Positions 15,843-37,994 of a stretch of DNA of 52,393 nucleotides are shown piece after piece. How positions within the stretch are numbered: position 1 is the stretch's first letter; the number at the start of each line of letters is the position of its first letter. The translations under genes and the position numbers were made by a program. This DNA comes from Verrucomicrobiota bacterium (GTDB taxonomy: Bacteria; Verrucomicrobiota; Verrucomicrobiia; Verrucomicrobiales; Akkermansiaceae), in NCBI GenBank assembly GCA_030835305.1, contig JAURPJ010000043.1:1-52393 (forward strand). The letters are read 5' to 3'. The notes under the pieces are model-generated. The model made no database searches. It was given only the letters and a program-made list of their open reading frames with translations, and was not told where the DNA came from.

Positions 15843-15938
15843 AAGTATTGGGTTGAACCCAGGAACTCCGAACGTTTGATGCGAACGAGAGCTTTCAAAT
15901 CTTCTTTTCAATCTCCTTCCCCGTTCCGGATAGGTTAA

Positions 15939-16667
15939 TCACTCCTTTTTCTCTGCCGGACGCTTGATTAAACCAATGGCCTTCTCTGCAAATCTCGCTC
16001 CCAGGGTTCGATACCCTGCCTTGGTGTAGTGAAGATCGTGAAGCACTTTGCCATCCACCTCGCGATCATTCAAGTCATCGGTATTCACCCACGCTCCCCT
16101 CGGATGAGCCTCGGCGAAAGCTTTCTGAACCTTCCTGATATTGACACGCCCCTCAAGACGCTTCGGATTGTCGAGGCCACTGTCGCTGATCCGGCCGATG
16201 ACAATATTGATGTCATTAAAAGACAGGTCTTTCTGCAGCTGTTCCAGCAACTCCTTGAGATAGGAATCGTAAGCCGTGTTGTTGAGATCAGATTCACCCT
16301 GCATCCAGACCAAGGTCACTGTCCTAAGCTGTTTCCCCTCGATCGCCACCTTCACTTTTTGCATTAAGGGATCATAAAGCTCTCCCCTCACCTTCGGCAC
16401 CCGTCCTCGCGTGGGTGGAGGGTTTTCATGATTCGTCTTCGCCCAGCTACGAATCGACTGCCCGCTGTTGGCATTTTTCACCACAATGACCTGCTCTTTC
16501 CCAAATGCCTTGGTCACCGCGGGAACGAAGGAAATGTTTTCATCCATCCCCGCCATGTTCGATTGACCGGAAAGAATGAAAAGGTGCTTCCCCTCATCCG
16601 CTCCGACGTTTCCTGCCCAAGACAATAAAAGGACCCGGATGCTTAGCACGACTTCCTTCACCTTCAT
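15939..16667 (-). CDS. SASA-family carbohydrate esterase (small)
   Basis: A 242-residue exported SGNH hydrolase with a short signal segment (VVLSIRVLLLSWAGNVGA). Motifs: HLFILSGQSNMAGM (Ser36), VTLVWMQGESDLNN, and the C-terminal HDLHYTKAGY carrying the catalytic His. It is the minimal single-domain member among the three SASA proteins here and the most conventional in motif content. It leads the minus-strand cluster (esterase, esterase, esterase-dehydrogenase fusion, oxidoreductase) and diverges from the metallophosphoesterase gene. The region between the two starts is about 100 bases and probably contains both promoters. The substrate is unknown; an acetylated oligosaccharide is the simplest guess from the cluster. 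Confidence 0.88.
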   Translation of the reverse strand: MKVKEVVLSIRVLLLSWAGNVGADEGKHLFILSGQSNMAGMDENISFVPAVTKAFGKEQVIVVKNANSGQSIRSWAKTNHENPPPTRGRVPKVRGELYDPLMQKVKVAIEGKQLRTVTLVWMQGESDLNNTAYDSYLKELLEQLQKDLSFNDINIVIGRISDSGLDNPKRLEGRVNIRKVQKAFAEAHPRGAWVNTDDLNDREVDGKVLHDLHYTKAGYRTLGARFAEKAIGLIKRPAEKKE

Positions 16668-16766
16668 GCCCCAGCATGCTTCATCCCAAGATCACTTCCA
16701 AATTTTAAATCATCAAGGAATCGGCCCTCGACGGATCGACTCCTGATGGGTTACTCAAGGAGAATC

Positions 16767-17630
16767 ATGAAGCTGTCCCGCGTCTTTCTTTTGCTTGCTG
16801 CCACCGCCCTCGTTTGCGGGATCCTCCTGACCAATCACCGGGGAATGGCAGATGAAGTGGAAAAGACTAAGGCCGGGACCTCGAAAGAGTTTACCTTCGT
16901 TCAAATGTGCGACACCCAACTGGGCATGGGCGGCTACGAGCACGATGTCAAAACCTTCGAGCTCGCGGTCGCGCAGATCAATGACATGGCTCCCGACTTT
17001 GTGCTCATCTGTGGTGATCTGGTCGGCAAAGCCAACGATAAATCCTTTGCCGACTTCAATCGAATCAAGACTGGCTTCAAAATTCCCTGTCACTGTGCCC
17101 CCGGAAATCATGACATCGGTAACAAGCCCACCATCGAATCACTTAAAAGCTATCGAGCAAAAGTCGGCAAAGACTACTACACTCTGGAACACAAGGGCTA
17201 CACCTTCGTCGTGGCAAACACCCAACTCTGGAAGGCTCCTCTGAAAGGCGAGTCCGAAAAGCACGACGACTGGTTCAAGGCCGCTTTGAAAACCGCCAAG
17301 GAAAAGAACAGCCCGGTTGTCGTCGTGACCCACTACCCGCTCTTTGTGAAGGCTCCGGACGAAAAGGAGAACTACTACAACATCGAACCCAAAAAGCGGA
17401 AGGAACTGCTCGAACTGTTCAATGCCAACGGAGTGGTTGCGATGCTCGCAGGCCACACCCACAAATTAGTCATCAATGACTACCAAGGCATTCAGATGGT
17501 GAATGGAGAAACGACCAGCAAAAACTTCGACAAGCGTCCGCTCGGCTTCCGCAAGTGGACCGCGAAGGAAATAGGCAGTCTAAGCCACGAGTATGTCAAA
17601 CTTGCCGGTGAGATTTCCGACAAAGAATGA
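16767..17630 (+). CDS. Exported calcineurin-like metallophosphoesterase
   Basis: 287 residues from ATG 16767, which has AAGGAG four bases upstream and opens the signal sequence (MKLSRVFLLLAATALVCGILL). An in-frame ATG at 16746 has no ribosome site and adds seven residues before the signal. All calcineurin-like metal motifs are present: CDTQLG (Asp49), ICGDLVGKAND (Asp84), APGNHDIGN (Asn114-His115-Asp116), VVTHYPLF and LAGHTHKL. It therefore binds two metals and cleaves phosphoesters outside the cytoplasm. The family includes phosphatases and nucleotidases; nothing here selects a substrate. It is divergent from the SASA cluster and convergent, eight bases apart, with the regulator gene. Confidence 0.92.
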   Translation: MKLSRVFLLLAATALVCGILLTNHRGMADEVEKTKAGTSKEFTFVQMCDTQLGMGGYEHDVKTFELAVAQINDMAPDFVLICGDLVGKANDKSFADFNRIKTGFKIPCHCAPGNHDIGNKPTIESLKSYRAKVGKDYYTLEHKGYTFVVANTQLWKAPLKGESEKHDDWFKAALKTAKEKNSPVVVVTHYPLFVKAPDEKENYYNIEPKKRKELLELFNANGVVAMLAGHTHKLVINDYQGIQMVNGETTSKNFDKRPLGFRKWTAKEIGSLSHEYVKLAGEISDKE

Positions 17631-17637
17631 AGCCCCC

Positions 17638-18855
17638 TCAGGTTACTCGATTCAGGTTCTGGCGAAATTTACCTGGAGAGATCCCGTAGCGTTCACGATA
17701 GCTCGTTTGAAGATAGTGGGCATAAGTAAAGCCCGTCAATTCCGCGATCGCTTCGATCGTGAGGTCGGTATTTTGCAGAAGGCGGTTCACTTCTCCAAAG
17801 CGAACACGGAGTAGCTCGGCCTTCGCACCTCGTTTCAGGGTTGCTTTCATTCGTCTTTCCAGGGTGCTGCGCGAAACTCCAAGCTGAGCACAGATTTCTG
17901 CCACCGTCATTCCTGAGAAGGCCTGCTTCCGGATCAACTTCACCGCCTGAAGAACGATAGGATCATCAATCACGAATTCATCCGATGAAGCCCGGATTTC
18001 GATGCCTTTCGGAGGGATCAAGATGGTCCTGGGATTCACACCGGGACCGCCCTTCATCATCTGATCCAACACTTCGGCGGCACGGTAGCCCACCGCCTCG
18101 CCATCGAATCTCACACTGGTCAGCGGAGGTGATGCGAATCTGCACAGGGTGGTTTCGTTCTCGCAACCCACCACTGCAACTTCCTCGGGAACTAAGATTC
18201 CGGCACGTTGACAGGCATCGAGAAGGCGGGTGGCGAGTTGGTCGTTTGTAGCAAAGATTCCCACTGGTTTTTGGAGTGATTGCAACCACGCCATCAACTT
18301 GTCTTGATGGTCCTCCCAATCGTCTGGCGTCGCTTCGCCATGAGATGGAAGGAGCGAACACCCAGCGTCAATACTCTCCCGCAAGTAGTTGACAAATTTT
18401 TGAATTCGTTCCCGGAAGAATGATTCGGTGTCGAGGGTGTAGGCCGCGAAGTGACGATAGCCCCGGTTGATGAAGTGGTCGGCGACCAATTGTCCGATCA
18501 TCCGGTTATCCATACCAATGAAGGGAAGCTGTCGATTTAAGTTTGAGGATCGCAACTCGACCGCCGGAACGCCCGTCGAGGCGATGGCCCGGGCCATCCC
18601 ATCGGTCTGGGTTCTCGTGAGGATTCCGTCTCCATCCCAGTTCTCCAACCACGGGGGAACAGATGATTCCAGAGATCTGAGCTCGAGGAAGGTCGACCAA
18701 GGACCATGACGGTGGATGTATCGACTGACTCCGGCAAGCATCTCACGGGAGTAAGTCCGGGTGGTTTCGATGAGAATCGCAACCCGGCGAACAGAGGGAT
18801 TTAGCGGAGATTTAATGTGACGAAAAACCTGATGTTTTTTGGACTTTAACTGGAT
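17638..18855 (-). CDS. XylR-like AraC-family transcriptional regulator (start unresolved)
   Basis: A sugar-responsive regulator with an N-terminal LacI-like periplasmic-binding-protein sensor (RRVAILIETTRTYSREMLAGV, GIFATNDQLATRLL, AVVGCENETTLCRF, PPLTSVRFDG). The C-terminal AraC DNA-binding domain has two helix-turn-helix motifs (VAEICAQLGVSRSTLERRM and IEAIAELTGFTYAHYLQTSYRERYG). The architecture is that of xylose regulator XylR and its Verrucomicrobia expansions. No ATG, GTG or TTG exists in frame between the divergent gene and the conserved domain. Canonical codons occur only at 19089, 19041 and 19029, deep inside the opposite gene. An AAGGAG lies at 18864-18859, with ATC (18855) and TTA (18849) just after; ATT at 18816 would match the usual length. 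The end coordinate is therefore provisional. It probably controls the divergent operon starting at 18889. Confidence 0.85.
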   Translation of the reverse strand: MQLKSKKHQVFRHIKSPLNPSVRRVAILIETTRTYSREMLAGVSRYIHRHGPWSTFLELRSLESSVPPWLENWDGDGILTRTQTDGMARAIASTGVPAVELRSSNLNRQLPFIGMDNRMIGQLVADHFINRGYRHFAAYTLDTESFFRERIQKFVNYLRESIDAGCSLLPSHGEATPDDWEDHQDKLMAWLQSLQKPVGIFATNDQLATRLLDACQRAGILVPEEVAVVGCENETTLCRFASPPLTSVRFDGEAVGYRAAEVLDQMMKGGPGVNPRTILIPPKGIEIRASSDEFVIDDPIVLQAVKLIRKQAFSGMTVAEICAQLGVSRSTLERRMKATLKRGAKAELLRVRFGEVNRLLQNTDLTIEAIAELTGFTYAHYLQTSYRERYGISPGKFRQNLNRVT

Positions 18856-18888: not shown

Positions 18889-19470
18889 ATGACAAACAAG
18901 GTGATTGGTAAGGCTCTGATTGTAATTGGAGATGCCAGCGAAACGGTCGACACCCTGTATCCCTACTATCGGCTGCAGGAAGCGGGAATTGAACCGGTGG
19001 TGATTGCTCCCGAGAAGAGACTCTACCAAATGGTGATGCACGAAATCCGTCCCGGCTGGACCATCACGAAGGAGTGGGAAGGCTATCAATTGGCTGCCGA
19101 TCTTGCCTTTTCAGAAGTGAATCCAGAGGACTATCTTGGAATACTGTTCTCAGGTGGACGGGCCCCGGAATACATCCGCGAAGACCCGGATCTCATCAAA
19201 TTAACCCAATGGTTTTTTGACCAAAACAAACCGATTGCGAGTGTTTGTCATGGAGTCGAGATTCCTGCGCGCGCGGATCGAGTGAAGGGACGGCGCATGG
19301 CCACCGTGGCGAAGTGCCAATTCGACCTCGAAATCTGTGGAGGAATTTATGTCAACGAAGCCTGCGTGATCGATGGCAATCTGGTCTCGGGAAGAACCTA
19401 TCATGACAACGGACACTACGTGGGCCCCTGGATCAAGATGCTCGAGGAAGCAGCCTCAATCGAAGCTTGA
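18889..19470 (+). CDS. DJ-1/PfpI family protein
   Basis: A 193-residue cytoplasmic protein (no signal) of the DJ-1/PfpI class-I-amidotransferase-like fold. The nucleophile elbow is ASVCHGVEI (Cys120, His121), with Glu18 (GDASETVDTLYPYYRLQ) in the position of the conserved acid that activates the cysteine. The loop FSGGRAPEYIREDPD matches the 'GGxxxxxxL' oxyanion region. Members act as deglycases, glyoxalases, chaperones or proteases. It is the first gene of a plus-strand operon; the next gene begins four bases after its stop. Divergence from the XylR-like regulator suggests sugar-controlled expression. Handling of a reactive carbonyl intermediate is conceivable given the redox genes that follow, but this is inference. 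Confidence 0.92.
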   Translation: MTNKVIGKALIVIGDASETVDTLYPYYRLQEAGIEPVVIAPEKRLYQMVMHEIRPGWTITKEWEGYQLAADLAFSEVNPEDYLGILFSGGRAPEYIREDPDLIKLTQWFFDQNKPIASVCHGVEIPARADRVKGRRMATVAKCQFDLEICGGIYVNEACVIDGNLVSGRTYHDNGHYVGPWIKMLEEAASIEA

Positions 19471-19473
19471 AAA

Positions 19474-20382
19474 ATGAATCGAAGAGATTTCTCAAAAATT
19501 GTCGGGGCAGCAGCCCTCATTCGGCCTGCCCAAGGAGCGGAACAAGAATGGGCTCTCCGCTATGTCCTGTCCTCGGCAATGTATGGCAACATGCCTCTTG
19601 ACCAAGTCTTGGCCCAAGTTGGGAAGACCGGATGTGAATCGATCGATATCTGGCGCAAAGTCCATGCCACTCATCGGGAGCAGATCAGCGAGATTGGGGA
19701 TGATGCCTTTCAGAAACTCCTCAAAAAGCATCAGACCAAGATGTCGGTCTCGACATGCTATCCGCTGGGGCCTTTTCGGCAAGATGAGGAGATGCGTTGG
19801 GCAAAAAAGAACGGCGGGGCGATGACCGTCTGCGGCTCGGGCGGGATGGGGCCGAAGGATCCTGTCGGCAAGGAGGCTAGGCGACAGATGAAAGCCTTCT
19901 TTGAGAAACTAAAACCCCACTATGAGCTGGCAGAGGAACTTGGCGTGACCATGGCAATTGAGAATCACAAGAACTCGATGCTCTCCTCACCCGATTCCAT
20001 CCGGTATTTTTATGAGCTGAATCCTTCGAAGAACATCGGCTTGGCCTTCGCACCTCATCATCTCGAGGACGCCATTGACCAGATCCCCGCACTCCTTCGG
20101 GAAGGAGGAAACAGGCACATTACCTTCATCTATTTTCAGGAACATCATCCGTCATCAAAGAAAAAGATGTCCGAAGAAGAGCAGCTCAAGCAGCTCCCTG
20201 GATTTGGCAAACTGGATTACATTCCGATCTTGCAGGTTCTGCGTGATATCAAATTCTCCGGACTGGTGGAGGTTTTTGGTCACCCTGTACCAAGAGGAAT
20301 TCCAATGCTTGGATCCGCAGCTGAAATCACCGAGGCCATCAACACCTCGAGGGCTTATCTCTCTAACTGCCTGAAGAAATGA
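19474..20382 (+). CDS. Sugar phosphate isomerase/epimerase-like TIM barrel protein
   Basis: A 302-residue AP-endonuclease-2-like TIM barrel. The N-terminus (MNRRDFSKIVGAAALIRPAQG) is a short Tat-like signal with the RRDF motif, so it is probably exported. Barrel landmarks include GCESIDIWRKVHA, the strand MAIENHKNSMLSS carrying a metal-binding Glu, HITFIYFQEHHPS, and the C-terminal VEVFGHPVPRG. Family members isomerise or epimerise sugars or act as xylose-isomerase-like enzymes with a divalent metal. It overlaps the next gene by four bases (ATGA), so the isomerase-like enzyme and the pentaheme cytochrome are translationally coupled. The exact substrate is not recognisable. Confidence 0.85.
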   Translation: MNRRDFSKIVGAAALIRPAQGAEQEWALRYVLSSAMYGNMPLDQVLAQVGKTGCESIDIWRKVHATHREQISEIGDDAFQKLLKKHQTKMSVSTCYPLGPFRQDEEMRWAKKNGGAMTVCGSGGMGPKDPVGKEARRQMKAFFEKLKPHYELAEELGVTMAIENHKNSMLSSPDSIRYFYELNPSKNIGLAFAPHHLEDAIDQIPALLREGGNRHITFIYFQEHHPSSKKKMSEEEQLKQLPGFGKLDYIPILQVLRDIKFSGLVEVFGHPVPRGIPMLGSAAEITEAINTSRAYLSNCLKK

Positions 20383-22466
20383 AAAAGAGTTTTCTTACAG
20401 CTTTAGTGCTGATGATTGGCGAGCTCGCTCAAGCCGAACCTCTTGTGATTGGCTATGAGCGATTTCATTCAGAGACTCCCTCCACAGTTGGTGGAGCGAT
20501 CCTTTTTTCCGAGCTTGGCTGTGCCAACTGTCACGGAGGATCCAAGGTTGTCATTCCAAGGAGCGGGCCTTCCCTCGAGGATCTTTCCAGCCGCATGAAT
20601 CACGAATGGGTGGTGAAGTTTCTTCAAAATCCCGAAGCCGGGCGCAAGGGATCTACGATGCCCCACATGACTCACAGCCTTACCGTGATGGAGATCGATG
20701 ATGTCGTTTCCTATCTTAGTTCTCTAGGAAAAGGACTCAAGTTCAAGAAGGCACGTCATGCCAACGCCGAACGTGGGAGCGCCCTCTATCATGAGAAAGG
20801 ATGTGTCGCGTGCCACGCTCCGACAGAGGATTTTCAAGGCCCTCAGGGCAAGGGCTTCAATCTAAAATCGGCCCTCGCGATTCCTCTGCCCGATCTCAAG
20901 AAGAAGACAACACTCACGGCGCTGGAGCACTTCCTCAGCGATCCCTCGAAGTATCGTCCGGATGGTCGCATGCCACACATTGCTCTCGAAAAGCAGGAGG
21001 TTATCGACCTCTCCGCTCATTTGCTCGACTACCAATCAAGCGACCCCCGGGAATCCCGAGATCTCATTCTCTGGCCCAAGGTGGATCGCGATCAGGTCGC
21101 CCGTGGTAAGTCTCTCGTGGTCAGAATGAACTGCACCTCTTGCCATAACCTGCCAGGAATTGAAGCCACGAAATTACTCCCGATCAAACCAGCCTCTTCC
21201 TTGAAAACGAAATCCTGTCTTTCGACTGATCCCGTCAAAGGGCTACCCCACTATAAGCTTAGTGACAAGCAACGTGCTTCCCTCACTCTCTATCTCAAGG
21301 GAGATCAATCGACTACGCCGGATCACGACAAGGGGCACCTGACCTTCGCGGCCATGAATTGTTACGCCTGCCATAGTCGTGATGGAAGAGGTGGTCCGAG
21401 CATAACGACTGACTCTTTCTTTATCGGCGACGAAAACCTTGGTGACTCCGGTCGCGTGCCGCCACCACTCACTGGCATCGGTCACAAACTTCAGCACGAT
21501 TGGTTGGTGGACGTGCTGGAAGGACGCAAAGACCGTCGGGTTCGCCCCTACTTAAAAACTCAAATGCCGGCTTATCCTGCGCAAGCGGAGGTCCTGGCCA
21601 AATGGCTCGCCAAACTTGATGCAGCACCAGGGGCCAAGCCAATCGTTTTACAACCCAACGACCTCGAAGCGGGTCGCAAGCTCCTCGGTAGTGAGGGTGG
21701 CGTCAACTGCATCACTTGTCACAATTGGGGTGAGCAACAGTCGCTGGGAATTCCAGCTCTCGATATTAGTTCACTCGATCAGCGACTTAAGCCCGGCTGG
21801 TTCCGTTCCTACCTCCTCGATCCTCCCGCCTATCGTCCCGGCACCCTGATGCCCTCGCTATGGCCCAATGGTCATTCGTCACTTCCAGATGTTCTCGACG
21901 GAGACACGGAACGCCAGATCGCGGCCATTTGGGTATTTATTCAGCAAGGTGAAAGCTTACCAACCGGATTCCCCGATAACCGGAGTGGACGCTTTGAGCT
22001 TACTCCAAAGGACCGGCCTATCATCCAGCGCACCTTCTTTGAAACGACCGGTACAAAAGCTATTCTGGTCGGATTCCCGGGAGACATTCATCTCGCTTAC
22101 GACGGGCAGAAATCGCAACCGTCGCTGGTGTGGCGCGGCCGTTTCTTTGATGCTTATGGCACATGGTTCTCCCGATTCTCTCCGTTCGGAAAACCCTTGA
22201 GCGACATAGTCTATCCTGTTGATCACGCCGGTCTCAAAGCGGCGCGCTTTCGAGGCTATCAGATTGGCCCACGTGGCAATCCAACCTTCTTGTCCCAGCC
22301 GGGTGACCAATTGATCGAAGACAGCTATCGGGTCGAAGGCGGTCAATTGATCCGGACCGTGAAGTGGAATCAAGGCTCGCCCCCTGCGACTGCCCACCCG
22401 GCCGGACTCAATGTTGAGACGGCCATTGGCAACCGAAGCAAAAAATACATTTACTCATGGAAGTGA
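20379..22466 (+). CDS. Pentaheme c-type cytochrome
   Basis: A 695-residue exported protein (signal MKKSFLTALVLMIGELAQA) with five CxxCH sites: CANCH (48-52), CVACH (142-146), CTSCH (252-256), CYACH (328-332) and CITCH (444-448). Met-containing distal segments follow most of them (TMPHM, RMPHI, QMPAYP, LMPSLW), so these look like tandem class-I cytochrome c domains with His/Met ligation. The last 170 residues carry no heme site and resemble the N-terminal segment that precedes propeller domains in related fused enzymes (FFETTGTKAILVGFPGDIHLAY). It overlaps the preceding isomerase gene by four bases and the following propeller gene by ten, forming a tightly coupled redox unit. It likely passes electrons from the propeller or another periplasmic dehydrogenase to the respiratory chain. 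Confidence 0.93.
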   Translation: MKKSFLTALVLMIGELAQAEPLVIGYERFHSETPSTVGGAILFSELGCANCHGGSKVVIPRSGPSLEDLSSRMNHEWVVKFLQNPEAGRKGSTMPHMTHSLTVMEIDDVVSYLSSLGKGLKFKKARHANAERGSALYHEKGCVACHAPTEDFQGPQGKGFNLKSALAIPLPDLKKKTTLTALEHFLSDPSKYRPDGRMPHIALEKQEVIDLSAHLLDYQSSDPRESRDLILWPKVDRDQVARGKSLVVRMNCTSCHNLPGIEATKLLPIKPASSLKTKSCLSTDPVKGLPHYKLSDKQRASLTLYLKGDQSTTPDHDKGHLTFAAMNCYACHSRDGRGGPSITTDSFFIGDENLGDSGRVPPPLTGIGHKLQHDWLVDVLEGRKDRRVRPYLKTQMPAYPAQAEVLAKWLAKLDAAPGAKPIVLQPNDLEAGRKLLGSEGGVNCITCHNWGEQQSLGIPALDISSLDQRLKPGWFRSYLLDPPAYRPGTLMPSLWPNGHSSLPDVLDGDTERQIAAIWVFIQQGESLPTGFPDNRSGRFELTPKDRPIIQRTFFETTGTKAILVGFPGDIHLAYDGQKSQPSLVWRGRFFDAYGTWFSRFSPFGKPLSDIVYPVDHAGLKAARFRGYQIGPRGNPTFLSQPGDQLIEDSYRVEGGQLIRTVKWNQGSPPATAHPAGLNVETAIGNRSKKYIYSWK

Positions 22467-23983
22467 AAAATTCGAACCGGCATCAATCTGTTTTGCTTCG
22501 CCTAATGGTCGTTACGATGACCAGCAGCGTCTTGGCAAAGGAGGCTCTGATTCCTGAATCATACGAACGCTTCGAAATTCTCTCTGCGGGTGTGGAAAAG
22601 GATTCCCGTGACCCGTCCTGGACACCCGCCGAAGGCATTCCGATGGAGGTGGGCGGGATGGAATGGATGGGAGATCGACTGGCGGTTTGTATTCGCAAGG
22701 GAGAAGTCTGGATGCTTGAGAAGCCGCTCTCCGAAGACCGAAAAGAATTCAAGTTTCACCTCTTTGCATCCGGATTGCACGAACCACTTGGCTTGCTGAA
22801 AGATGGTGATGATCTTCTGGTCGCGCAGCGGTCGGAAGTGACTCGCCTGCAGGACAACAATCGCGACGGCAGGGCGGATGCTTATCTCACCGAGTGCGAC
22901 GGTTGGAATGTCTCGGGCAACTACCATGCCTATACCTACGGACCCGTTCGCGACGGAAATGGAGATCTATGGGTGTCCCTTAATCTCGGCATGGGCAAGC
23001 TTGCCAATAATAAGATCGGCTGGCGCGGCTGGGCAGGAACCATTGGGAATGATGGCTCTTTTCAACCCAAGTCTCTGGGCACGCGTTCGCCCTCCGGAAT
23101 GGGAGTCAATCAGAGGGGTGACTTGTTCTTCTCGGACCAGCAAGGGACCTGGATCCCCGCCACCCCGATCTATCATCTGCGCCCTGGCGTATTTTATGGA
23201 AATCAAGAATCACTCGCCAGCTTGAAGTCGCCAAGGGCTCCCTTCGCCATGAAAGTCATCCCAAAAGCAAACCAACCTTATGGCAAGGCCCTGGCCAGCT
23301 CGGAACGGTTTGTCCCGCCGGCAGTCTGGCTCCCCTACAATAAAATGGGACGTTCTGCAACTGACGTGCAGGTCATCGATCAGCAGGGAAAGTTCGGGCC
23401 TTTCGACGGTCAATTGCTCGTCGGAGAATTCACCAACTCCGCAGTGAATCGTGTCTTCCTCGAACAAGTGGATGGCGAATACCAGGGCGCGTGTTTTCCG
23501 TTTTTGACCAATTTCCCGGCGGCGGTATTGCGTCTCCAGTTTGCGCCGGATGGTTCACTTTTTGTGGGAATGAGCAACCGGGGTTGGTCATCACTGGGCA
23601 ATCGCAGCTATGGCTTGCAGCGCATTCGATTCAACAAGCGCACTCCTTTTGCAATTAGAGAGATGCGAGCCAAGCCGGATGGCTTCGAACTGGTCTTTAC
23701 CGAACCGCTCAACCCGGAGTCACTGAGCCTCGCGACGTTGGAGCTGAGTAGTTTTACCTATCAGTATTCCCCGCGTTACGGAGGTGATGAGGTCGATACC
23801 ACTTCACACAGTGTTAGCGACATCCGGCTTTCCCCGGACAGCAAATCTGTGCGTTTTCAAGTCGATGGCTTAAGAGTCCATCATGTCTTCGAGCTTCGCA
23901 CCCATGGCCTGAAATCAAACTCCGGCCAAAGGCTCAAACACCCGAACGCGTGGTACACTCTTAACCGGATTCCCGGTAAATAG
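22457..23983 (+). CDS. Exported beta-propeller protein (sorbosone-dehydrogenase-like)
   Basis: A 508-residue propeller protein; the signal region is within the first about 28 residues (LLRLMVVTMTSSVLA). Blade motifs resemble the soluble quinoprotein / L-sorbosone-dehydrogenase group: GGMEWMGDRLAVCIRKGEVW, LHEPLGLLKDGDDLLVAQ, then NNRDGRAD and NYHAYTYGPVRDGNGDLW. A C-terminal Ig-like domain begins about residue 395. There is no CxxCH, unlike its paralogue at 28389-31082, where cytochrome and propeller are fused; here the electron acceptor is the separate pentaheme cytochrome encoded upstream with a 10-base overlap. Whether it binds PQQ is not decidable by eye. It is the last gene of the operon controlled, by position, by the XylR-like regulator. 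Confidence 0.88.
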   Translation: MEVKNSNRHQSVLLRLMVVTMTSSVLAKEALIPESYERFEILSAGVEKDSRDPSWTPAEGIPMEVGGMEWMGDRLAVCIRKGEVWMLEKPLSEDRKEFKFHLFASGLHEPLGLLKDGDDLLVAQRSEVTRLQDNNRDGRADAYLTECDGWNVSGNYHAYTYGPVRDGNGDLWVSLNLGMGKLANNKIGWRGWAGTIGNDGSFQPKSLGTRSPSGMGVNQRGDLFFSDQQGTWIPATPIYHLRPGVFYGNQESLASLKSPRAPFAMKVIPKANQPYGKALASSERFVPPAVWLPYNKMGRSATDVQVIDQQGKFGPFDGQLLVGEFTNSAVNRVFLEQVDGEYQGACFPFLTNFPAAVLRLQFAPDGSLFVGMSNRGWSSLGNRSYGLQRIRFNKRTPFAIREMRAKPDGFELVFTEPLNPESLSLATLELSSFTYQYSPRYGGDEVDTTSHSVSDIRLSPDSKSVRFQVDGLRVHHVFELRTHGLKSNSGQRLKHPNAWYTLNRIPGK

Positions 23984-24049: not shown

Positions 24050-25465
24050 TTAAGCCAACAAGTCCTTGACGACGCGGCCATGAACATCGGTGAGCCGAAA
24101 GTCGCGGCCCTGGCTGCGGAAAGTGAGGCGTTTGTGGTCGATGCCAAGTTGGTACAGGATGGTCGCATGAAGGTCATGAACATGGACCTTGTTCTCGACT
24201 GCGTGATAGCCAAATTCATCGGTAGCACCATAGGTCAGTCCAGATTTCATGCCACCACCAGCCATCCACATCGTAAAGCCATGCGGATGGTGATCGCGCC
24301 CCCAGGAACTACCCATCACCTGAGCGACCGGAGTTCGACCGAACTCGCCACCCCAGATGACAAGAGTGTCGTCGAGAAGTCCGCGCTGCTTGAGGTCTGA
24401 GATTAGCGCAGCAATGGGCTGATCGGCTGCGCCACACTGTCGCCGGTGCTCGCGGTCCATATCGGTATGGGAATCCCAGCCACGATCGTAAAGTTGCACG
24501 AAGGGCACTCCGCGCTCCACAAGTCGACGCGCCAACAGGCAATTGCGGGCGAAGGAGGGTTTAACCCGGTCTGCGCCATAAAGCTCCATCGTTTTTTCCG
24601 ATTCCTTTCCAAGGTCGGCAAGCGCAGGCACACTGACCTGCATGCGAAAGGCCAGTTCATAGGAATCAATACGAGCGGCAATTTCAGGATCACCAAGAAT
24701 AAAGTGCTGCCGGTGGTTCATCCACCTCAGAAGATCGAGCTCTCGGCGACGGTCTCTCGTCGTGACACCTTTTGGGTTGTCGAGGTGAAGCACGGGAACT
24801 CCGCTGTTTTGGAACGGCACCCCGGCGTGGCGGGAGTCGAGAAACCCGTTGCCCCAAAAGCTCTGCAAGAGCGGCTGACCATCGCTCACCCCGGAAGTCA
24901 GAACGGTGTAGGCGGGGAGATCATCATTGACAGTTCCAAGTCCATAGGACATCCAGGATCCAAGAGTCGGTCGATCACCCAACAAAGTCCCGCTATTCAT
25001 AAAATTCACCCCAGGGTCATGAATATTGGTATCAGTGTGCATCGAGCGGATGACCGTCAACTCATCAGCGACCTTAGCGAGATTAGGTAAGAGTTCGGAA
25101 ATCATCGTGCCTGATTCTCCATTCTGACGAAAGGCATAGGGCGACCCCTTGAGATTCGGAGTTCCACGAATCAGAGCAAACTTCTGATGGTCTTTCAGCA
25201 ACTCCTGCGGAATCGCTTTCCCATCAAGTTCGTTGAGCTTTGGCTTGGGATCAAAAAGATCGATGTGCGAAGGACCTCCGGCCATGAAGAGAAAGATGAC
25301 GCGCTTCGCTTTTGGCGCATGATGGCAACCAGGCAAACTCCCCTGTCCGGCAAGGAGCTTGTCATTCATCAACGCAGCCAGGGCCACCGAGCCGAGACCT
25401 CCTGCCGAGCGGCCCAGGAAGGCGCGACGAGTGAGATCTGCGGAGGATGAGGAATGAGGGCTCAT
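24050..25465 (-). CDS. DUF1501 family Tat-exported protein
   Basis: A 471-residue Tat substrate (DLTRRAFLGRSAGGLGSVALAALM). DUF1501 motifs: [32 protein letters not shown], and DLHATILYQLGIDHKRLTF near the end. Its ATG overlaps the stop of the LamG-bearing cytochrome by four bases (ATGA at 25465-25462), the tightest coupling among the three DUF1501 pairs here. That fixes the start and implies one-to-one synthesis with the cytochrome. The last visible gene of the large minus-strand locus running from 37700. Function as described for the family: alkaline-phosphatase-like fold, reaction unknown. Confidence 0.94.
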   Translation of the reverse strand: MSPHSSSSADLTRRAFLGRSAGGLGSVALAALMNDKLLAGQGSLPGCHHAPKAKRVIFLFMAGGPSHIDLFDPKPKLNELDGKAIPQELLKDHQKFALIRGTPNLKGSPYAFRQNGESGTMISELLPNLAKVADELTVIRSMHTDTNIHDPGVNFMNSGTLLGDRPTLGSWMSYGLGTVNDDLPAYTVLTSGVSDGQPLLQSFWGNGFLDSRHAGVPFQNSGVPVLHLDNPKGVTTRDRRRELDLLRWMNHRQHFILGDPEIAARIDSYELAFRMQVSVPALADLGKESEKTMELYGADRVKPSFARNCLLARRLVERGVPFVQLYDRGWDSHTDMDREHRRQCGAADQPIAALISDLKQRGLLDDTLVIWGGEFGRTPVAQVMGSSWGRDHHPHGFTMWMAGGGMKSGLTYGATDEFGYHAVENKVHVHDLHATILYQLGIDHKRLTFRSQGRDFRLTDVHGRVVKDLLA

Positions 25466-28308
25466 GGTCTCGTGATTGTTTCGTCAAGGTTCAGAAGCAC
25501 GGTCGCCACACTCTGCCAGATACTCAGTTCGGGAGAGTCGGCGCGCTCGTAACGGGTTAGCCATTGGGCTTTAAGATAGTCCATAAATTTTTCCAGTTCG
25601 AGACGTGTGGGTGGGCGCCCAAGACAAAACCGGAACGCTAGATCCAAGCGGACTTGATCTTTAACATCTTCCGAAAGAATTCTCCGGGCCAGCCCCGTCG
25701 CAGACTCAACAAAAACCGGAGCGTTTAGGGTCATCAAGGCCTGGGTGGGCAGAATTGCCGAGTTGCGCTTCGTGACACACACGGCTCGTGCCGGGGCGTC
25801 GAGAAGCTCCAACGTCGGGTGCAGGGCCATCCGACGCCGGTAGGTGTAAAGGCTCTTGCGATAGCCGTCGTCACCGCTGCTGGCGATCCATTTTCCGGGC
25901 AAGTCCCGGTCTTCCCAATAGTGATCGGGCTGACGGGGAAATACGCCGGGGCCACCGACTGAGGGTTTGAGTAGCCCGCCAATTGCAAGCGCCTGGTCGC
26001 GAATTTGTTCGGCAGGTAATCTGACTCTTGGAAGCCGGGAGAACAGCATGTTCTTGGGATCTTTTTCCCTCAGTGCCGGGGTGATCTTTGTCGACTGACG
26101 GTAGGTCGCCGAGGTCACAATCAAGCGATTGATGTGTTTCATATCCCAGCCGCTCTCGACGAACTCGACGGCCAACCAGTCGAGCAATTCGGGATGGGTA
26201 GGAAAAGCACCCTGCGAACCGAAGTCGTCCGGAGTGCGGACCAGCCCGTGACCGAAATAGCTCTGCCAAAAACGATTCACCACCACCCGCGCCACGAGCG
26301 GGTTCCTCCCATCGACCAACCACCGGGCGAATTCGAGCCGGTTCTTTGGCTGCGAACTTTCCTCCGAAGCCAAAACGGTCGGTATTGCAGGAAACACTTT
26401 GTCGCCACGATTCAAAAAGCTTCCACGCAAATGAACATATGTGTCACGTGCGTTGTCTCTCTCTTTCATGACAGGCACCTCGGACACCTCCCAAGAAGAA
26501 GCCAAAAATTTTCGATCGAGCTCGTCCAACTCAACCTCGAGTTTTCTGATTTCCTCGGCCTCCTTCCCGAGATCAAAAGCACGGTCATACAACCTGACAT
26601 CTGTAAGCGCCCCCTCAAACTGGTAACCGTTCGGTTCGCTGGAATTCTCATAGCTCTTTCCGATCGCAAGGCGACGCGCCGAAACCGCGATGGTATCCGG
26701 TACTTTCCCGATCATCCGGACAGCGGTGTCCTCGATCCCGTCGACGAAAAGACGCACCGACCGGCCCGCTTCAAAAACAACTGCAACCCGGTGAACCTGC
26801 CCGTCATTAACGGCCTTGCTTCCATAGACGGCCGCACCTGAGAACGGTTCGGTGCTCGATGACACCCAAAAGAAAAGGTGGCCGGGCGTTGCTTCTTCTT
26901 CGCCCTCGCCACCGATTCCGAACAAATAACTACGCTGCTTTCCAGGCCAATCGTTCTTCGATACAATAGTGGCCACCTCTTGCTTGGTGCGTATCGTCGC
27001 AGTGAGTGTGAGATCTCCCGTAAGGCTAAATTTTTCAGGGTCAGCCTCAAGATGGGGAAAATCCCATTTCCCCAATAATCCATTTTCACCAAGGGGCTTT
27101 GGCATAGAGAGCCGTTTGCGCGCCTCAATCAATGCTGTATTGAGGCGGGCTCGCTCGGCAGGAAGTTTCGGGTCTAATTCAGCAGTGGGAGCGCGATAGT
27201 TCATCGTCGGCCCACCTTGCTCGTGACCCTTTCCATGGTGCTCGATATTATTGAATATCGCAAACATCGAGAAATACTCACGCTGACTGATGGGGTCGAA
27301 TTTGTGGTCGTGGCATTCAGCACATTCCATGGTCAATCCAAGCCAGACCTGGGCCGTTGTATTGACCCGGTCGGTGACCCCTTTCAGGCGGTATTCCTCC
27401 ACTGGGTAGGTTTGACCACGGGCCTGTGGTGCATTGCGGTGGAAGCCAGTGGCAAGACGCTGTTCATCGGTTGCATTTGGCAACATGTCGCCAGCCAATT
27501 GCTCGATGGTGAACTGATCAAAGGGCATGTTAAGGTCAAGCGAACGAACGACCCAGTCCCGGTAGGGCCAGATCTGGCGCATCTTGTCATCGGCAAATCC
27601 CCGCGTATCCGCATAGCGGGCGAGATCAAGCCAGTCCTGGGCCCGCCGTTCGGCATAATCGCGGGTCGAAAGCAAGCGATCAACCACTCGCTCGTAGGCT
27701 CCAGGGGCACAATCGTTTACGAAGGCCGAGACTTCAGCAAGCGTTGGTGGAAGTCCGGTGAGATCCAGCGTGACCCGGCGAATCAGGGTGGGACGATCAG
27801 TTTCCGGCGACAGAGCCATACCTTCCTTGTTGAGCCTACTCAAAATATAGTGGTCAATCGGGTTCTTCTCCCCTGCCACCGCGTCCGGTTTTATTTTTTT
27901 TGGAAGGGTAAAAGCCCAGTGGGGTTGATACTCGGCTCCCTGCTCAATCCATCGTCTAAGAAGATCCTTTTCAGCTTCAGAAAGATTTTTGTCTCTCTTC
28001 GGAGGCGGCATGACCACTTCAGGATCCGTGCTGGTAATGCGATGCCAGACTTCGCTGCGATCGAGGACGCCAGGCTTGATTGCCTGGGCGCCATCCCTCA
28101 GGGCATAAGCGCCCTCCGCAGTATCCAAACGGAGCTTGGCTTTACGGGTCTTCGCATCGAATCCATGGCAGGCGAAACACTTGTCGGAAAGAATCGGAAG
28201 AATGTCGCGATTAAACTCTACGCGTGTTGACCCGGCCCATGCTTCCGGCAGGACCAAAAGTGAACCCGAAACGCAGACGATTGAACGAATGAGAAGTCTC
28301 CGAAACAT
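25462..28308 (-). CDS. DUF1549/DUF1553 planctomycete-type cytochrome with LamG domain
   Basis: 948 residues from ATG 28308, chosen because it begins a signal peptide (MFRRLLIRSIVCVSGSLLVL); upstream in-frame codons add 15 unlikely residues. Order: PSCyt1 heme (CFACH, 44-48), DUF1549 with the second heme motif (CAECH, in ECAECHDHKFDPIS, near 330), a LamG/concanavalin-like jelly roll (about 410-580: GDLTLTATIRTKQE, SYLFGIGG, VNDGQVHRVAVVFEAGRSVRLFVDG, FEGALTDVRLYDRAFD), then DUF1553 (NRLEFARWLVDGRNPLVARVVVNRFW). LamG modules commonly bind carbohydrates, so this protein may hold its substrate through it. The start codon lies inside a perfect hairpin. It overlaps the DUF1501 gene and follows the heme-propeller gene by 80 bases. 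Confidence 0.93.
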   Translation of the reverse strand: MFRRLLIRSIVCVSGSLLVLPEAWAGSTRVEFNRDILPILSDKCFACHGFDAKTRKAKLRLDTAEGAYALRDGAQAIKPGVLDRSEVWHRITSTDPEVVMPPPKRDKNLSEAEKDLLRRWIEQGAEYQPHWAFTLPKKIKPDAVAGEKNPIDHYILSRLNKEGMALSPETDRPTLIRRVTLDLTGLPPTLAEVSAFVNDCAPGAYERVVDRLLSTRDYAERRAQDWLDLARYADTRGFADDKMRQIWPYRDWVVRSLDLNMPFDQFTIEQLAGDMLPNATDEQRLATGFHRNAPQARGQTYPVEEYRLKGVTDRVNTTAQVWLGLTMECAECHDHKFDPISQREYFSMFAIFNNIEHHGKGHEQGGPTMNYRAPTAELDPKLPAERARLNTALIEARKRLSMPKPLGENGLLGKWDFPHLEADPEKFSLTGDLTLTATIRTKQEVATIVSKNDWPGKQRSYLFGIGGEGEEEATPGHLFFWVSSSTEPFSGAAVYGSKAVNDGQVHRVAVVFEAGRSVRLFVDGIEDTAVRMIGKVPDTIAVSARRLAIGKSYENSSEPNGYQFEGALTDVRLYDRAFDLGKEAEEIRKLEVELDELDRKFLASSWEVSEVPVMKERDNARDTYVHLRGSFLNRGDKVFPAIPTVLASEESSQPKNRLEFARWLVDGRNPLVARVVVNRFWQSYFGHGLVRTPDDFGSQGAFPTHPELLDWLAVEFVESGWDMKHINRLIVTSATYRQSTKITPALREKDPKNMLFSRLPRVRLPAEQIRDQALAIGGLLKPSVGGPGVFPRQPDHYWEDRDLPGKWIASSGDDGYRKSLYTYRRRMALHPTLELLDAPARAVCVTKRNSAILPTQALMTLNAPVFVESATGLARRILSEDVKDQVRLDLAFRFCLGRPPTRLELEKFMDYLKAQWLTRYERADSPELSIWQSVATVLLNLDETITRP

Positions 28309-28319
28309 AAGTGTTTCGG
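28300..28319 (-). promoter_or_regulatory. Perfect hairpin covering the start codon of the LamG cytochrome gene
   Basis: CCGAAACA (28300-28307) and TGTTTCGG (28312-28319) form an 8-bp stem with a 4-base loop. The ATG (28308-28306) sits at the loop-stem junction, so the folded mRNA would hide the start codon. Seen directly; a translational control role is inferred. Confidence 0.5.
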
Positions 28320-28388
28320 GTTCGAGTGTTTGTCCATCTTGTCCATTCTGCAAGGATCGAAATCATCAGTTTCGATCCGACGAAGTGA

Positions 28389-31082
28389 TCACTCGGGAAT
28401 AGCACGCAGGGTGAAATAGGCCTGAAGTTTACTCCAAGCCGAATATTCGCCGAAGGATTCCCCCGTTTCCGGCAAGGTGATTTCATAGATTCGATCCAGC
28501 CAGAAATCCCCGTTTCCAAAATCCTTCAATTTCACAAGCAGAACCAAACCGTCTCCGGAAAGTTCTGTGGCGGCCACCGCATTCTCGCGAACGTCGTGCT
28601 CGGGCGAACCATATTCCGCAGTGTTGGTGTAGAACCATGACTTCACTTGAACGGAGTTTGCAATACCAGCCCTTTTTAACGGACGGGTAAAATGGATTTC
28701 GAAACCATGCGGATTGGAGGCCACACGCAGGATATCTCCAGGAATTGTTTCCCCATCCCAGACCATACGTTGCAGGGCATGAGCAAATCCCCCGGTGGCA
28801 TACCAGCCACGACCGGTCTGGCCAATCATCATGCTGCCGTCGGCCAAAAAGCAGGGCCGCATCGGCCCCGAAGCCAGTCCCTCGGCAAAGAGAATGGCAC
28901 ATCCTTGATCCACTCCGTTCACCCGCTCAGTGACCACTCGAAAAAGTTGGGAAAGCGTCTGATCACCCATGAAGACCTGGTTCTGATAGACTCCGAATTT
29001 TCCTCCTGTGAGGTCCCACGCCGGATTCCCGGGTGAGTTGGCGATCTTGTTATGAGGCAGCCAAACCGCACCTTTGCGAAGTCTTCCCGCCCACATTTCT
29101 CCATCCAATTTGCTCTCGGGAGTGACTCCGGGCAAATCGACCAGGCCTGACAGGTGGCCATAGAATTTGCCTTTCTCGAGCGGCACCCACTTTGAAGACC
29201 CAACAAACTCACCTTGGTTTTCGGAATACCAAAGGCGGCCATTCGGAGCCAATCCCATCCCCGCCGGGCTGCGCAAGCCATTGGCAAAAAATGACATCTC
29301 TCCCTCCGGCGTCACCACACACGACCACCCACGATAGCCACCCATCGATCCCATGAATTTTCCTCCGGCCCGGAAGGCCGCCTCTTCAACTCCCGAAGCA
29401 TCGGCCAAATTCAAATTAAAATGGTAATTGCCTCCGGTATCGCGAACCGGTCCGTGGGTGTATTCGTGATAGTTTCCATGAAAGCCGAAATCATCACAAA
29501 GAGTTTCAAAGCGGTCGGCCCGACCATCGCCATCGGTATCCACCAATCGGGTTAGCTCCGGTTTCTGGGTAATCACAATCCGGTCACCCCTGTCATCCTC
29601 AATGCACACCCCGAGGGACTCAAAAATACCCTCGGCAAAGAGCGTCCACTGATCATCACGAATCCGCCAAATCCCCGAATCACGGGTCGCGAGCACGATG
29701 GTGCCATCTTTGGCTTGCGCAAGTCCAGTGGCTTCAAAAGGCTGCTTTCGGCCATACAAATCAAGCGGCGGATCGATGGTAAAAGCCGAGTAACCCGCCT
29801 GGACGGCAAGAGGTTTCCCTTTGCGACGGCGACGATTGAGATCCGGTTGCAGCACGACGGTTGGTGCGGAGACAATCGCCTGGGGGTCGAAGTTTTCTTT
29901 GCGCTCAATGACAGGGCGAGCCACCACCACTCCGGGAATTTTGGCCTTTAAACGATAGACCTTCGACTCACTCGAAGCAGGCAGCTTCCAAAGTCCATTC
30001 TCGATCCTGCCTCCGTCGACCGTCACCACGGCCAACCCGCCCGACCTGAGACGAAAACTCTGAGCCTCCGCCAAATTTCCCTCAAGGCGAATCTCCACTC
30101 CCCCGTCAACTGCAAGCGTGATGGATTCCGTGAGAACGTTTTTCCCAACTCGAAATTCGAAAGTTGGCAGCCCTGATTCCGGCTCAAGTTGGTGCCCGCG
30201 AAACTCCGCATCAAGAGAAGCCAACCTGGTCGCGAAATCAATGCCATCCCGGAGATATTTTCCGATCTCGGGATGATCCTGCACGTCGGGTTCCTTAAAC
30301 TCAAAATCAACCACAATTCCGTTCCGGGTCAGGGGCGCAAGCAAGGGTTCATCTTCGAGAAAGACCACCGCGTCCCGACCCGTCGTTGAAGGTCGCTTGC
30401 CTCGGCCCGACCGCTCCTCACGCAGATTCAAAAAGCCCCCGCTCCAAACCCGCCGGACTGACAGCATCCGTGGATCAAAGGTGTAGCTCATGCCATTGGG
30501 CAAGCCGACATGCAGGGCCCGCCCGCTCGTCCCGGACAGCATGGCACGGAAAACCCGCGGCCGGTCAGTCACAGGAATCTCGCCCGGGACATCAATGAGA
30601 TGTTTGATGGGTAGGGTTTTCTCCCTCGTGAGCATCACCTTCGCCGGCCCGGCTTCTCCCTCCTCAGCCAGCGTTCGAAGGTAATGCCAAAGTGCCTCGA
30701 GATCCTGCCCGGTGATCACGGTGGACCCGTACTGCGGCATGACCTGGGGATAGGTCGCGCCCTTCGCGGGACCATTTTCGGCAACCGCAAGTTGATCCCA
30801 TGACTGGCGGACCGACTTGATGAAATAGTCCTTGTCCGCCTTGACCTTCTCCCGGCCCCCTTCCACTCCAACTTCACGCATCCGCGGCCGGGTGAGAAAA
30901 AGTCCGTAAAGATTTGGGCCGGTTTTCATCGACTTGTCGCCCTTCTCAACCACGTGACATTCGACACATCCCATCGAGGAAAAAACCTCCCGGCCATAAG
31001 CCACGGCATCAAAAGGTTCCTGGCTGGAAAGCGGAAGAGCCAAGGCCCCGGCAAAGAGAAAGCGGCAGTATGTAAATCCCAT
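28389..31082 (-). CDS. Cytochrome c / beta-propeller heme-linked dehydrogenase
   Basis: About 897 residues from ATG 31082 (MGFTYCRFLFAGALALPLSSQ, signal-like); an in-frame TTG at 31136 would add 18 non-signal residues. An N-terminal cytochrome c carries CVECH (39-43) and a Met region (TYPQVMPQYG). A middle segment of about 230 residues with beta character follows. From about 420 a six-bladed propeller resembles sorbosone/PQQ-type dehydrogenases (DGTIVLATRDSGIWRI, RLVDTDGDGRADRFETL, NYHEYTHGPVRDTGGNYHF). It is a fused counterpart of the separate cytochrome and propeller genes at 20379-23983; the shared NYHxYTxGPVRD motif shows common descent. It probably oxidises a sugar or alcohol in the periplasm and feeds electrons to its own heme. 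The ATG lies in a short palindrome. Confidence 0.9.
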   Translation of the reverse strand: MGFTYCRFLFAGALALPLSSQEPFDAVAYGREVFSSMGCVECHVVEKGDKSMKTGPNLYGLFLTRPRMREVGVEGGREKVKADKDYFIKSVRQSWDQLAVAENGPAKGATYPQVMPQYGSTVITGQDLEALWHYLRTLAEEGEAGPAKVMLTREKTLPIKHLIDVPGEIPVTDRPRVFRAMLSGTSGRALHVGLPNGMSYTFDPRMLSVRRVWSGGFLNLREERSGRGKRPSTTGRDAVVFLEDEPLLAPLTRNGIVVDFEFKEPDVQDHPEIGKYLRDGIDFATRLASLDAEFRGHQLEPESGLPTFEFRVGKNVLTESITLAVDGGVEIRLEGNLAEAQSFRLRSGGLAVVTVDGGRIENGLWKLPASSESKVYRLKAKIPGVVVARPVIERKENFDPQAIVSAPTVVLQPDLNRRRRKGKPLAVQAGYSAFTIDPPLDLYGRKQPFEATGLAQAKDGTIVLATRDSGIWRIRDDQWTLFAEGIFESLGVCIEDDRGDRIVITQKPELTRLVDTDGDGRADRFETLCDDFGFHGNYHEYTHGPVRDTGGNYHFNLNLADASGVEEAAFRAGGKFMGSMGGYRGWSCVVTPEGEMSFFANGLRSPAGMGLAPNGRLWYSENQGEFVGSSKWVPLEKGKFYGHLSGLVDLPGVTPESKLDGEMWAGRLRKGAVWLPHNKIANSPGNPAWDLTGGKFGVYQNQVFMGDQTLSQLFRVVTERVNGVDQGCAILFAEGLASGPMRPCFLADGSMMIGQTGRGWYATGGFAHALQRMVWDGETIPGDILRVASNPHGFEIHFTRPLKRAGIANSVQVKSWFYTNTAEYGSPEHDVRENAVAATELSGDGLVLLVKLKDFGNGDFWLDRIYEITLPETGESFGEYSAWSKLQAYFTLRAIPE

Positions 31083-33325: not shown

Positions 33326-33383
33326 CCAGTTCCGCTAACACAAAACACTTCGCTGGTGAATCCCAAAGTAGGTTATCTCAAAA

Positions 33384-37700: not shown

Positions 37701-37702
37701 AA

Positions 37703-37718
37703 CTACCGTATGTGGTAG
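37703..37718 (-). promoter_or_regulatory. Small hairpin at the ribosome-binding position of the CotH gene
   Basis: CTACC (37703-37707) and GGTAG (37714-37718) flank a 6-base loop, 3-18 bases upstream of the chosen ATG where a Shine-Dalgarno would normally lie; none is visible. The stem is short, so the evidence is weak on its own. Confidence 0.25.
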
Positions 37719-37841
37719 CTCGCCAGATCGTCCGTAAGCAAGGGCAAATTCTTCTAACTGCATGCCTTGCCCTGCTAACTCTTTCCGGAGACCGAATTTA
37801 ATTCAGTCATTTTGAACAACACTATCCGGACATTCCGTCGC

Positions 37842-37868
37842 GGACTGATATCTGCTCGCTATCAGTCC
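37842..37868. promoter_or_regulatory. Perfect 9-bp inverted repeat with 9-base loop
   Basis: GGACTGATA (37842-37850) and TATCAGTCC (37860-37868) are perfectly complementary. It lies between the DUF1552 stop (37995) and the CotH-protein start (37700), an interval of about 295 bases with no gene. No U-run follows on the minus strand, so it may be an operator, an mRNA-processing or stability hairpin, or a Rho-type terminator stem. Confidence 0.5.
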
Positions 37869-37994
37869 AAACGGTTCATATCGAATGATGCAAGGTGCTT
37901 GTCCGGAAGGCTTACCTCTCTGTTTCGGGTCGAATGCTGGATGGTAAAAGATGGCATGGGCGGCACGCAGGAGGTAAGGCCCGCGTTTCGCGGT

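Follow-up and report, generated by a model that had tools for sequence, protein, structure and literature searches.

Analysis of a 52,393-nucleotide stretch of DNA from a Verrucomicrobiota bacterium of the Akkermansiaceae (assembly GCA_030835305.1, contig JAURPJ010000043.1; the whole stretch is called the window below) revealed an operon of four genes for a DJ-1/PfpI protein, a TIM-barrel protein, a five-heme cytochrome c and a stand-alone beta-propeller, facing a XylR-type regulator (Table 1). In our best reading the operon oxidises sugars in the periplasm, perhaps to a 3-keto-glycoside, and the cytochrome-propeller pair replaces the glycoside dehydrogenases of relatives. That it is a regulated operon for the oxidative handling of a sugar or glycoside we consider quite plausible, if somewhat short of probable. 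Loci and genomes are denoted L and G.

The four plus-strand open reading frames (ORFs) of the operon were confirmed, and their coordinates match the gene order and the spacing of 3, -4 and -10 bp claimed in the original prediction. The start codons are candidates, and export signals were assessed by eye from the N-termini, with no predictor. The cytochrome used as query found matches in 51 of 58 related genomes, and 40 of the resulting loci together with the window (41 in total) were examined; these genomes are relatives of the window, their counts are not independent, and operon-type genomes may be undercounted. Conservation of the four-gene order, which had been proposed as a check, was borne out: the set is present in 15 of the 41 loci, ten of them in the window's order (among these L070, whose TIM barrel is just 25% identical) and five in the order TIM barrel, DJ-1, cytochrome, propeller. 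The arrangement is beyond chance, as it turns up again in different families and under both Verrucomicrobiota and Planctomycetota record titles.

Overlap of start and stop makes it likely that the cytochrome and the propeller form a complex. A split pair occurs in 36 of the 41 loci, and in all of these except L049 (+28) a candidate start codon of the propeller gene overlaps the stop codon of the cytochrome gene (35 of 36). No pair was counted in L040 and L041 (contig edges; L041 holds a propeller start at its edge), in L048 (no adjoining propeller) or in L051 (no cytochrome match). A paralogue in a separate gene cluster had been described as a fusion of both products. Its 897-residue protein has a propeller part that matches the stand-alone propeller over nearly its full length (E 1e-109) and a DUF6797-like domain (19.5 bits, under Pfam's 24.9) whose counterpart in the split cytochrome is residues 510-661 (hhalign probability 97.9, E 4e-13). 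The fusion therefore holds for the propeller and the DUF6797-like part and fails for the five-heme portion, as the paralogue has only one CxxCH; a Rosetta stone made of five hemes and a propeller was corrected to one that shares the DUF6797-like part. The NYHxYTxGPVRD motif, said to be shared, was located at residue 155 of the propeller and residue 537 of the fused protein. With both shared parts homologous, the pair conserved together with its start/stop overlap and the fused form predicted with a pTM of 0.74 (mean pLDDT 75.1, from 13 aligned sequences), the Rosetta-stone inference itself is upheld; the pTM by itself suggests that the parts of the fused protein may pack in a fixed manner. At L050:6425-10582 these parts occur in a third order: a single ORF of 1385 amino acids has DUF6797, propeller and cytochrome in succession, according to match positions.

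Comparison of DJ-1 neighbourhoods revealed which genes stand in the place of the pair in relatives. A total of 87 DJ-1 loci (80 named and 14 further neighbourhoods, less 7 duplicates) were analysed by chaining labelled genes on the same strand; the labels come from probe proteins alone, several of them chosen for lying beside DJ-1. The chains contain the cytochrome in 16 loci, the propeller in 11, Gfo/Idh/MocA in 11, GMC in two, a TIM barrel like that of the window in 28, one of a second kind in three and a sulfatase in ten; contig ends and remnants explain the cytochrome chains seen to be short of a propeller. Eleven of the 16 Gfo matches lie within 1.5 kb of DJ-1, which is a quarter of the sequence (p 0.0002), or 11 in 248 kb near DJ-1 against 5 in 778 kb, a density inflated by both probes having been taken beside DJ-1. 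Pfam searches on representatives confirmed GMC, Gluconate_2-dh3, AP_endonuc_2 and GFO_IDH_MocA. The Gfo partner in L096 has its best NCBIfam match in the BT_2158 glycoside 3-dehydrogenase family (141 bits, where the cut-off is 750), and the GMC partner in L206 is nearest to fructose and glucose dehydrogenase subunits. Downstream of the latter lie Gluconate_2-dh3 and a TIM barrel whose ligands are intact; Asp219, His245, Glu287 and a K-x-H motif are retained in the TIM barrel that adjoins GMC. The pair would fill the slot held in relatives by GMC with gluconate-dehydrogenase subunit 3 or by Gfo/Idh/MocA, and 3-keto-glycoside-type chemistry would be the most likely because the families otherwise holding this slot include 3-keto-glycoside makers. 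On a DJ-1 tree of 98 rows the cytochrome label must change at least 12 times, four of these changes being forced by starred branches, and many branches are weak; L125 and L136 were labelled cytochrome-type from other genes about 3 kb from DJ-1, though unchained. One clade with support 98 unites five cytochrome-type, two GMC-type and three other rows. Two further arrangements were seen beside DJ-1. At L207:6399-8310 (the contig of L075) and L208:5540-7200, what follows DJ-1 and the TIM barrel is only a short remnant of the cytochrome, no propeller was matched, and the redox pair was apparently lost. At L196:7524-12600, a DJ-1 gene 83-84% identical (as in L197, L198 and L199) is followed by PSD1 and DUF1501 genes; PSD1 follows DJ-1 at the contig or locus end in L197 and L199 and DUF1501 follows it in L198, these genes representing another cytochrome family of the Planctomycetes-Verrucomicrobia-Chlamydiae (PVC) bacteria.

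The regulator faces the operon divergently, as had been claimed, and joins a periplasmic-binding-protein sensor to an AraC-type helix-turn-helix, with matches to Peripla_BP_3, the AraC-type domain and PBP1_XylR (27.0 bits, equal to its cut-off). Copies near DJ-1 are 65-69% identical in L076-L081 and L087 and 43-62% in other loci. The gene probably begins at an ATT (18816, minus strand), because no in-frame ATG, GTG or TTG occurs between the operator and the conserved N-terminus; this ATT occupies the place of a TTG in L076. A canonical start is also missing from the L055 copy (97% identical).

The predicted operator was first met as a word common to enumerated upstream regions; the 24-mer has a single match in the window at up to 3 mismatches and none in 100 shuffles. 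A matrix from six training sites, three of them identical and all picked after inspection, was scored on 29 test loci against 200 shuffles per locus (p floor 0.005). It finds the operator in seven of the nine loci that have a regulator no more than 3 kb upstream (L068, L078, L079, L080, L136, L153 and L203) and, despite such a regulator, not in L070 (p 0.06) or L120 (p 0.77). The operator is weak in L096 and L105 (p 0.02), where the regulator lies on the same strand, and no site was found in L106 and L152, where it is more distant, or in any of the 16 loci without a detected regulator. Both GMC-type operons, L153 and L203, are preceded by the operator; therefore the same kind of regulator and operator precedes both redox types, cytochrome and GMC. 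A regulon search at up to 3 mismatches found sites in six of 56 genomes and none for the reversed control pattern; the sites in G000, G021 and G052 lie at DJ-1, and those in the other three genomes have no probe gene within the 2-3 kb fetched. The operator was also considered as mere coding sequence of the regulator. This is unlikely, as its frame relative to the regulator varies between loci, seven of the ten loci shown have in-frame stops upstream of it, and the nearest regulator ATG is 6-15 bp beyond it in L068, L136, L153 and L203, within the limits that L153 and L203 have earlier start codons and that the frame is open in the window and L055. The earlier description of the operon as sugar-regulated thus stands for the type of regulator and the conserved operator and does not extend to the ligand. 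The regulator would bind this operator and switch on the four genes.

The propeller matches DUF7133 (PF23500; E 1e-6, 28.8 against 27 bits) and stays under the cut-off of TIGR02604 (40.6 against 122.2 bits). Structural comparison of its predicted model (pLDDT 87.9) places the soluble sugar dehydrogenases that depend on pyrroloquinoline quinone (PQQ) in all of the top 16 rows (Z 26.5-30.2, rmsd 2.5-3.5, 286-312 residues aligned), the next family following at Z 23.8; the propeller fold of soluble glucose dehydrogenase (sGDH) is thus present. A profile search of the PDB with the propeller was uninformative, returning mainly designed 'Pizza' propellers through short repeats. The cytochrome is a 695-residue protein (Cytochrom_C, E 5.7e-31) with CxxCH motifs at residues 48, 142, 252, 328 and 444, and all five are invariant in 24 rows, as is Met-Pro at 94, 198, 396 and 491. 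The TIM barrel matches AP_endonuc_2 (E 2.6e-15, 57.2 against 31.1 bits), and its profile matches IolI, TM0416, MJ1311 and D-tagatose 3-epimerases. Its twin arginine is invariant (19/19), it keeps Glu163 (19/19) and Glu266 (18/19), and an E-x-H motif (Glu163, His165) is present.

Of the four products DJ-1 is conserved best, with 71-99% identity among intact copies where the cytochrome shows 32-83%. It matches DJ-1_PfpI (E 7.5e-30, 104.4 against 26.6 bits), lies under the cut-off of TIGR01382 (118.6 against 139.05 bits) and has an intact nucleophile elbow, E18, E94, C120 and H121 being invariant in all 14 aligned sequences; its nearest solved structures are the Arabidopsis DJ-1 homologue D and then the PH1704 deglycase. 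A scan of named genomes gave at least 593 pattern matches, of which 591 were confirmed and the best 80 used: 78 of these 80 are titled Planctomycetota or Verrucomicrobiota, one Hydrogenedentota and one as an Alphaproteobacteria metagenome-assembled genome. A cluster of ORFs seen in 21 of the 80 loci was taken as a by-product of the strong DJ-1 conservation; all 12 of its listed ORFs overlap DJ-1 on the opposite strand. Among the 56 genomes 29 contain DJ-1, namely 23 of the 25 with an operon-type cytochrome against 6 of the 31 without, kinship not removed. Genomes were called operon-type if the cytochrome was at least 45% identical or adjoined a TIM barrel or DJ-1; G014 and G016, with only cytochrome fragments by DJ-1, were counted among the 31, and G052 is outside the operon-type set, as its cytochrome locus L035 has neither gene adjoining. 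Several operon-type genomes carry DJ-1 on a different contig. DJ-1 beside the operon is frame-split or a remnant at L061:12702-13293, about L062:12844-13053 and L066:11551-11682; intact copies exist elsewhere in G003 (L200) and G056 (L204), and none was found in G005 at E 1e-40.

A number of observations weigh against periplasmic sugar oxidation as the function of the operon. The first concerns PQQ. Six contacts (His, Arg, Asn, Lys, Arg, Arg), with roles as in the A. calcoaceticus sGDH, were placed by local hhalign with YliI and PVC members of the GSDH family (probability 9.1, E 0.0036); because these scores are modest, the equivalences rest on the structural match too. The Asn is replaced by Ser in all 29 propellers, the Lys by Thr in 25 and Val in four, and both carboxylate-binding Arg are absent from all 29. 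One contact Arg is kept as Arg210 in 29/29, the fused paralogue included, and the invariant His157 is by motif displaced by one residue from the position of the catalytic His, where the alignment is gapped. The propeller would thus retain at most two of the six contacts and lacks the complete set seen in YliI, L155 and L158 (five are kept in L156 and L157, and L159-L166 are without some as well). PqqC was found in none of the 56 genomes, the bacterium's own included, though PQQ may come from outside; the same search gave matches in eight of 288 genomes of the phylum, six above the cut-off. With at least four contacts absent, the earlier label of dehydrogenase is doubtful and draws on the fold. 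GSDH-family matches number 34 in G032 (6.2 Mb) and 0 to 14 in the other 55 genomes searched.

The remaining points of this kind concern the partners. Two redox kinds never occur in one DJ-1 chain (0/87), which is only suggestive because the chance of no overlap between 16 and 11 in 87 is 0.09. The window's own operon has neither a GMC nor a Gfo/Idh/MocA gene, by which a 3-keto-glycoside operon would be recognised and which some relatives do have. In the TIM barrel the metal Asp position is Ala in 19/19, and the metal His position, by alignment to MJ1311, is Gln in 14 and Trp in five; the Glu-Asp-His-Glu metal site is not present, and with two of four ligands replaced the protein is a divergent member of its family for which the name isomerase is doubtful. 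The NCBIfam equivalog model for SoxX passes on the cytochrome (79.1 against 61 bits, residues 48-115). Seven loci (L059-L063, L066 and L069) have the TIM barrel, the cytochrome and the whole or part of the propeller with no intact adjoining DJ-1, and G005 and G026 carry the cytochrome with no DJ-1 found at E 1e-40. DJ-1 is not specific to the operon, because it is the sole labelled gene in 44 of the 87 loci. For the same reason, and for want of a visible signal peptide in the DJ-1 alignment (14 sequences), the suggestion that DJ-1 clears carbonyls made by the dehydrogenase is not sustained: only the TIM barrel (Tat-like), the cytochrome and the propeller (Sec-like) show export-type N-termini, so DJ-1 is probably in another compartment.

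These observations bear differently on the rival explanations. If the propeller were a usual PQQ-dependent aldose dehydrogenase using environmental PQQ, with the cytochrome as its acceptor, the unanimous structural rows, the invariant contact Arg and the near-placed His would be accounted for; the loss of the other contacts in every propeller, where YliI, L155 and L158 keep all six, and the absence of PqqC displaced this as the leading explanation, and we now consider it quite improbable. Greater weight, though still on the unlikely side, is given to a non-catalytic propeller that binds or docks glycans, or a lyase, with the cytochrome serving another, unlinked enzyme. The lost PQQ contacts agree with this, the heparin-binding protein HHIP is related in fold (Z 23.3), and PMC5615132 describes other PVC cytochrome families of unknown function. 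Its difficulty is that the pair occupies the place of the relatives' oxidoreductases and that His157, Arg210, Glu109, Gln229 and Glu336 are invariant in 29/29 as candidate pocket residues.

Two other explanations start from DJ-1 and from the cytochrome. A carbonyl or oxidative stress response, with DJ-1 as a general deglycase and the cytochrome acting as peroxidase or electron sink, would suit the intact PfpI-type active site and the many DJ-1 loci without a labelled partner; we see only a slim chance of it, given a regulator of the sugar-sensor type and labelled partners (among the chosen probes only) that are TIM barrels, Gfo/Idh/MocA, GMC and sulfatases. Handling of the sulfur of sulfated glycans by a SoxX-like cytochrome is very improbable. 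The SoxX model did pass, in two stretches of the cytochrome, and sulfatases occur in ten of the 87 chains; this model, of 78 residues, extends over a single heme domain of the five, the first, and no SoxA or other Sox partner was found by Pfam among the operon genes, to which the search was confined. The match is probably a generic class-I heme match.

Under the preferred reading of periplasmic sugar oxidation, the propeller would bind its substrate in the periplasm and, tightly coupled to the cytochrome through the DUF6797-like domain of the latter, would oxidise it, and the five hemes would hand the electrons to the respiratory chain. The exported TIM barrel would act on the oxidised sugar by elimination, hydration or epimerisation, and cytoplasmic DJ-1 would process a carbonyl product following uptake. 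A stronger form of this is doubtful, although a real possibility: that the pair is a new class of periplasmic sugar or glycoside dehydrogenase in Planctomycetota and Verrucomicrobiota, in which a propeller related to PQQ enzymes works without PQQ and passes electrons straight to a multiheme cytochrome. Such a class would be interchangeable with glycoside dehydrogenases that depend on flavin or nicotinamide, with a single regulator for both in some lineages, and its keto-sugar product would be handled by DJ-1.

The operon is best placed with oxidative sugar-processing operons, and it lacks defining features of GSDH proteins and of canonical isomerases. LacABC and fructose dehydrogenase, which consist of GMC, a small subunit and cytochrome c, are alike in tying periplasmic sugar oxidation to cytochrome c, and GMC with Gluconate_2-dh3 holds the same slot in L153 and L203; unlike them, the operon has no flavoprotein, and it includes a cytochrome that carries five hemes plus a DUF6797-like domain. 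The propeller fold, one Arg and perhaps the His are shared with soluble PQQ aldose sugar dehydrogenases such as E. coli YliI, whereas the operon propeller is without four PQQ contacts, has an extra C-terminal domain and is coupled to a cytochrome. DJ-1 shares fold and active-site residues with the PfpI/DJ-1 deglycases (PH1704, Arabidopsis DJ-1 D); what sets it apart is its strong conservation as a clade of the PVC bacteria and its frequent place in operons beside genes related to sugars. In PMC9007349, Caulobacter LacABC is regarded as converting lactose into 3'-ketolactose in the periplasm, and PMC10628242 describes an Agrobacterium operon in which a glycoside dehydrogenase is accompanied by TIM-barrel proteins, including a beta-eliminase; both serve as models for the chemistry proposed here. 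According to PMC10628242, the Agrobacterium GlycDH/OGE beta-elimination operon and the gut C-glycoside cleavage enzymes join an oxidoreductase to TIM-barrel 'sugar phosphate isomerase' proteins, the C-glycoside eliminases have a metal Glu, and a catalytic His is common to the O- and C-glycoside enzymes. The likeness lies in the E-x-H motif of the TIM barrel here and in the two relatives with GMC instead of the cytochrome pair; the differences are the pair itself, the missing GMC or Gfo, the missing metal Asp and His, the added DJ-1 and the XylR-type control. The PSCyt/PSD systems with DUF1501 resemble the operon in phyla, heme proteins and glycan and sulfatase neighbourhoods; their domains differ, and in the window those genes (24050-28353) form a separate cluster. 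PVC bacteria hold many cytochrome genes, and a 2017 survey in mSphere reports such genes near sulfatases with function unknown (PMC5615132). The fused paralogue, the operator common to both redox types and a slot that relatives fill with likely glycoside dehydrogenases together give one related branch a specific, testable function, and they provide a first context for a strikingly conserved DJ-1 clade. A literature search found no description of this operon, the search having missed most subscription papers.

Table 1. Features of the operon region and the fused comparator (window positions).
Feature	Position	Strand	Remarks
Metallophosphoesterase	16746..17630	+	Pfam; neighbour recurring near operon
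XylR-type regulator	17638..18816	-	Pfam: periplasmic-binding-like sensor and AraC-type helix-turn-helix
Predicted regulator operator TGACGAAAAACCTGATGTTTTTTG	18818..18841	+	24 bp; ends 47 bp upstream of DJ-1 ATG
DJ-1/PfpI protein	18889..19470	+	Pfam DJ-1_PfpI; Cys120-His121 and Glu94 invariant
TIM-barrel protein (AP_endonuc_2)	19474..20382	+	Pfam; twin-Arg N-terminus; non-canonical metal site
Five-heme cytochrome c with C-terminal DUF6797-like domain	20379..22466	+	Pfam; Sec-like N-terminus
Beta-propeller (DUF7133 / PVC-type)	22457..23983	+	Soluble glucose dehydrogenase fold; Sec-like N-terminus
Fused paralogue: one-heme cytochrome, DUF6797-like, propeller	28389..31082	-	Comparator; separate gene cluster

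Two SASA-type acetylesterases adjoin the operon (window 14784-16667), with similar-looking genes by DJ-1 in L207 and L208, and sulfatases and a ceramidase-like gene (under its Pfam cut-off) lie beside the operon in relatives. These esterases, sulfatases and the ceramidase-like gene suggest decorated glycans as substrate, which would be glycan-derived and perhaps acetylated or sulfated. The metallophosphoesterase adjoins the operon or its regulator in L055, L056 and L057 and lies about 4 kb off in L066. A Gfo/Idh/MocA gene occurs at window 10403-11641, on the other strand about 7 kb from the operon. Further PVC-type clusters at window 31133-41755 contain a LamG protein, a CotH/LTD protein, DUF1552 and PSD2-5/PSCyt genes.

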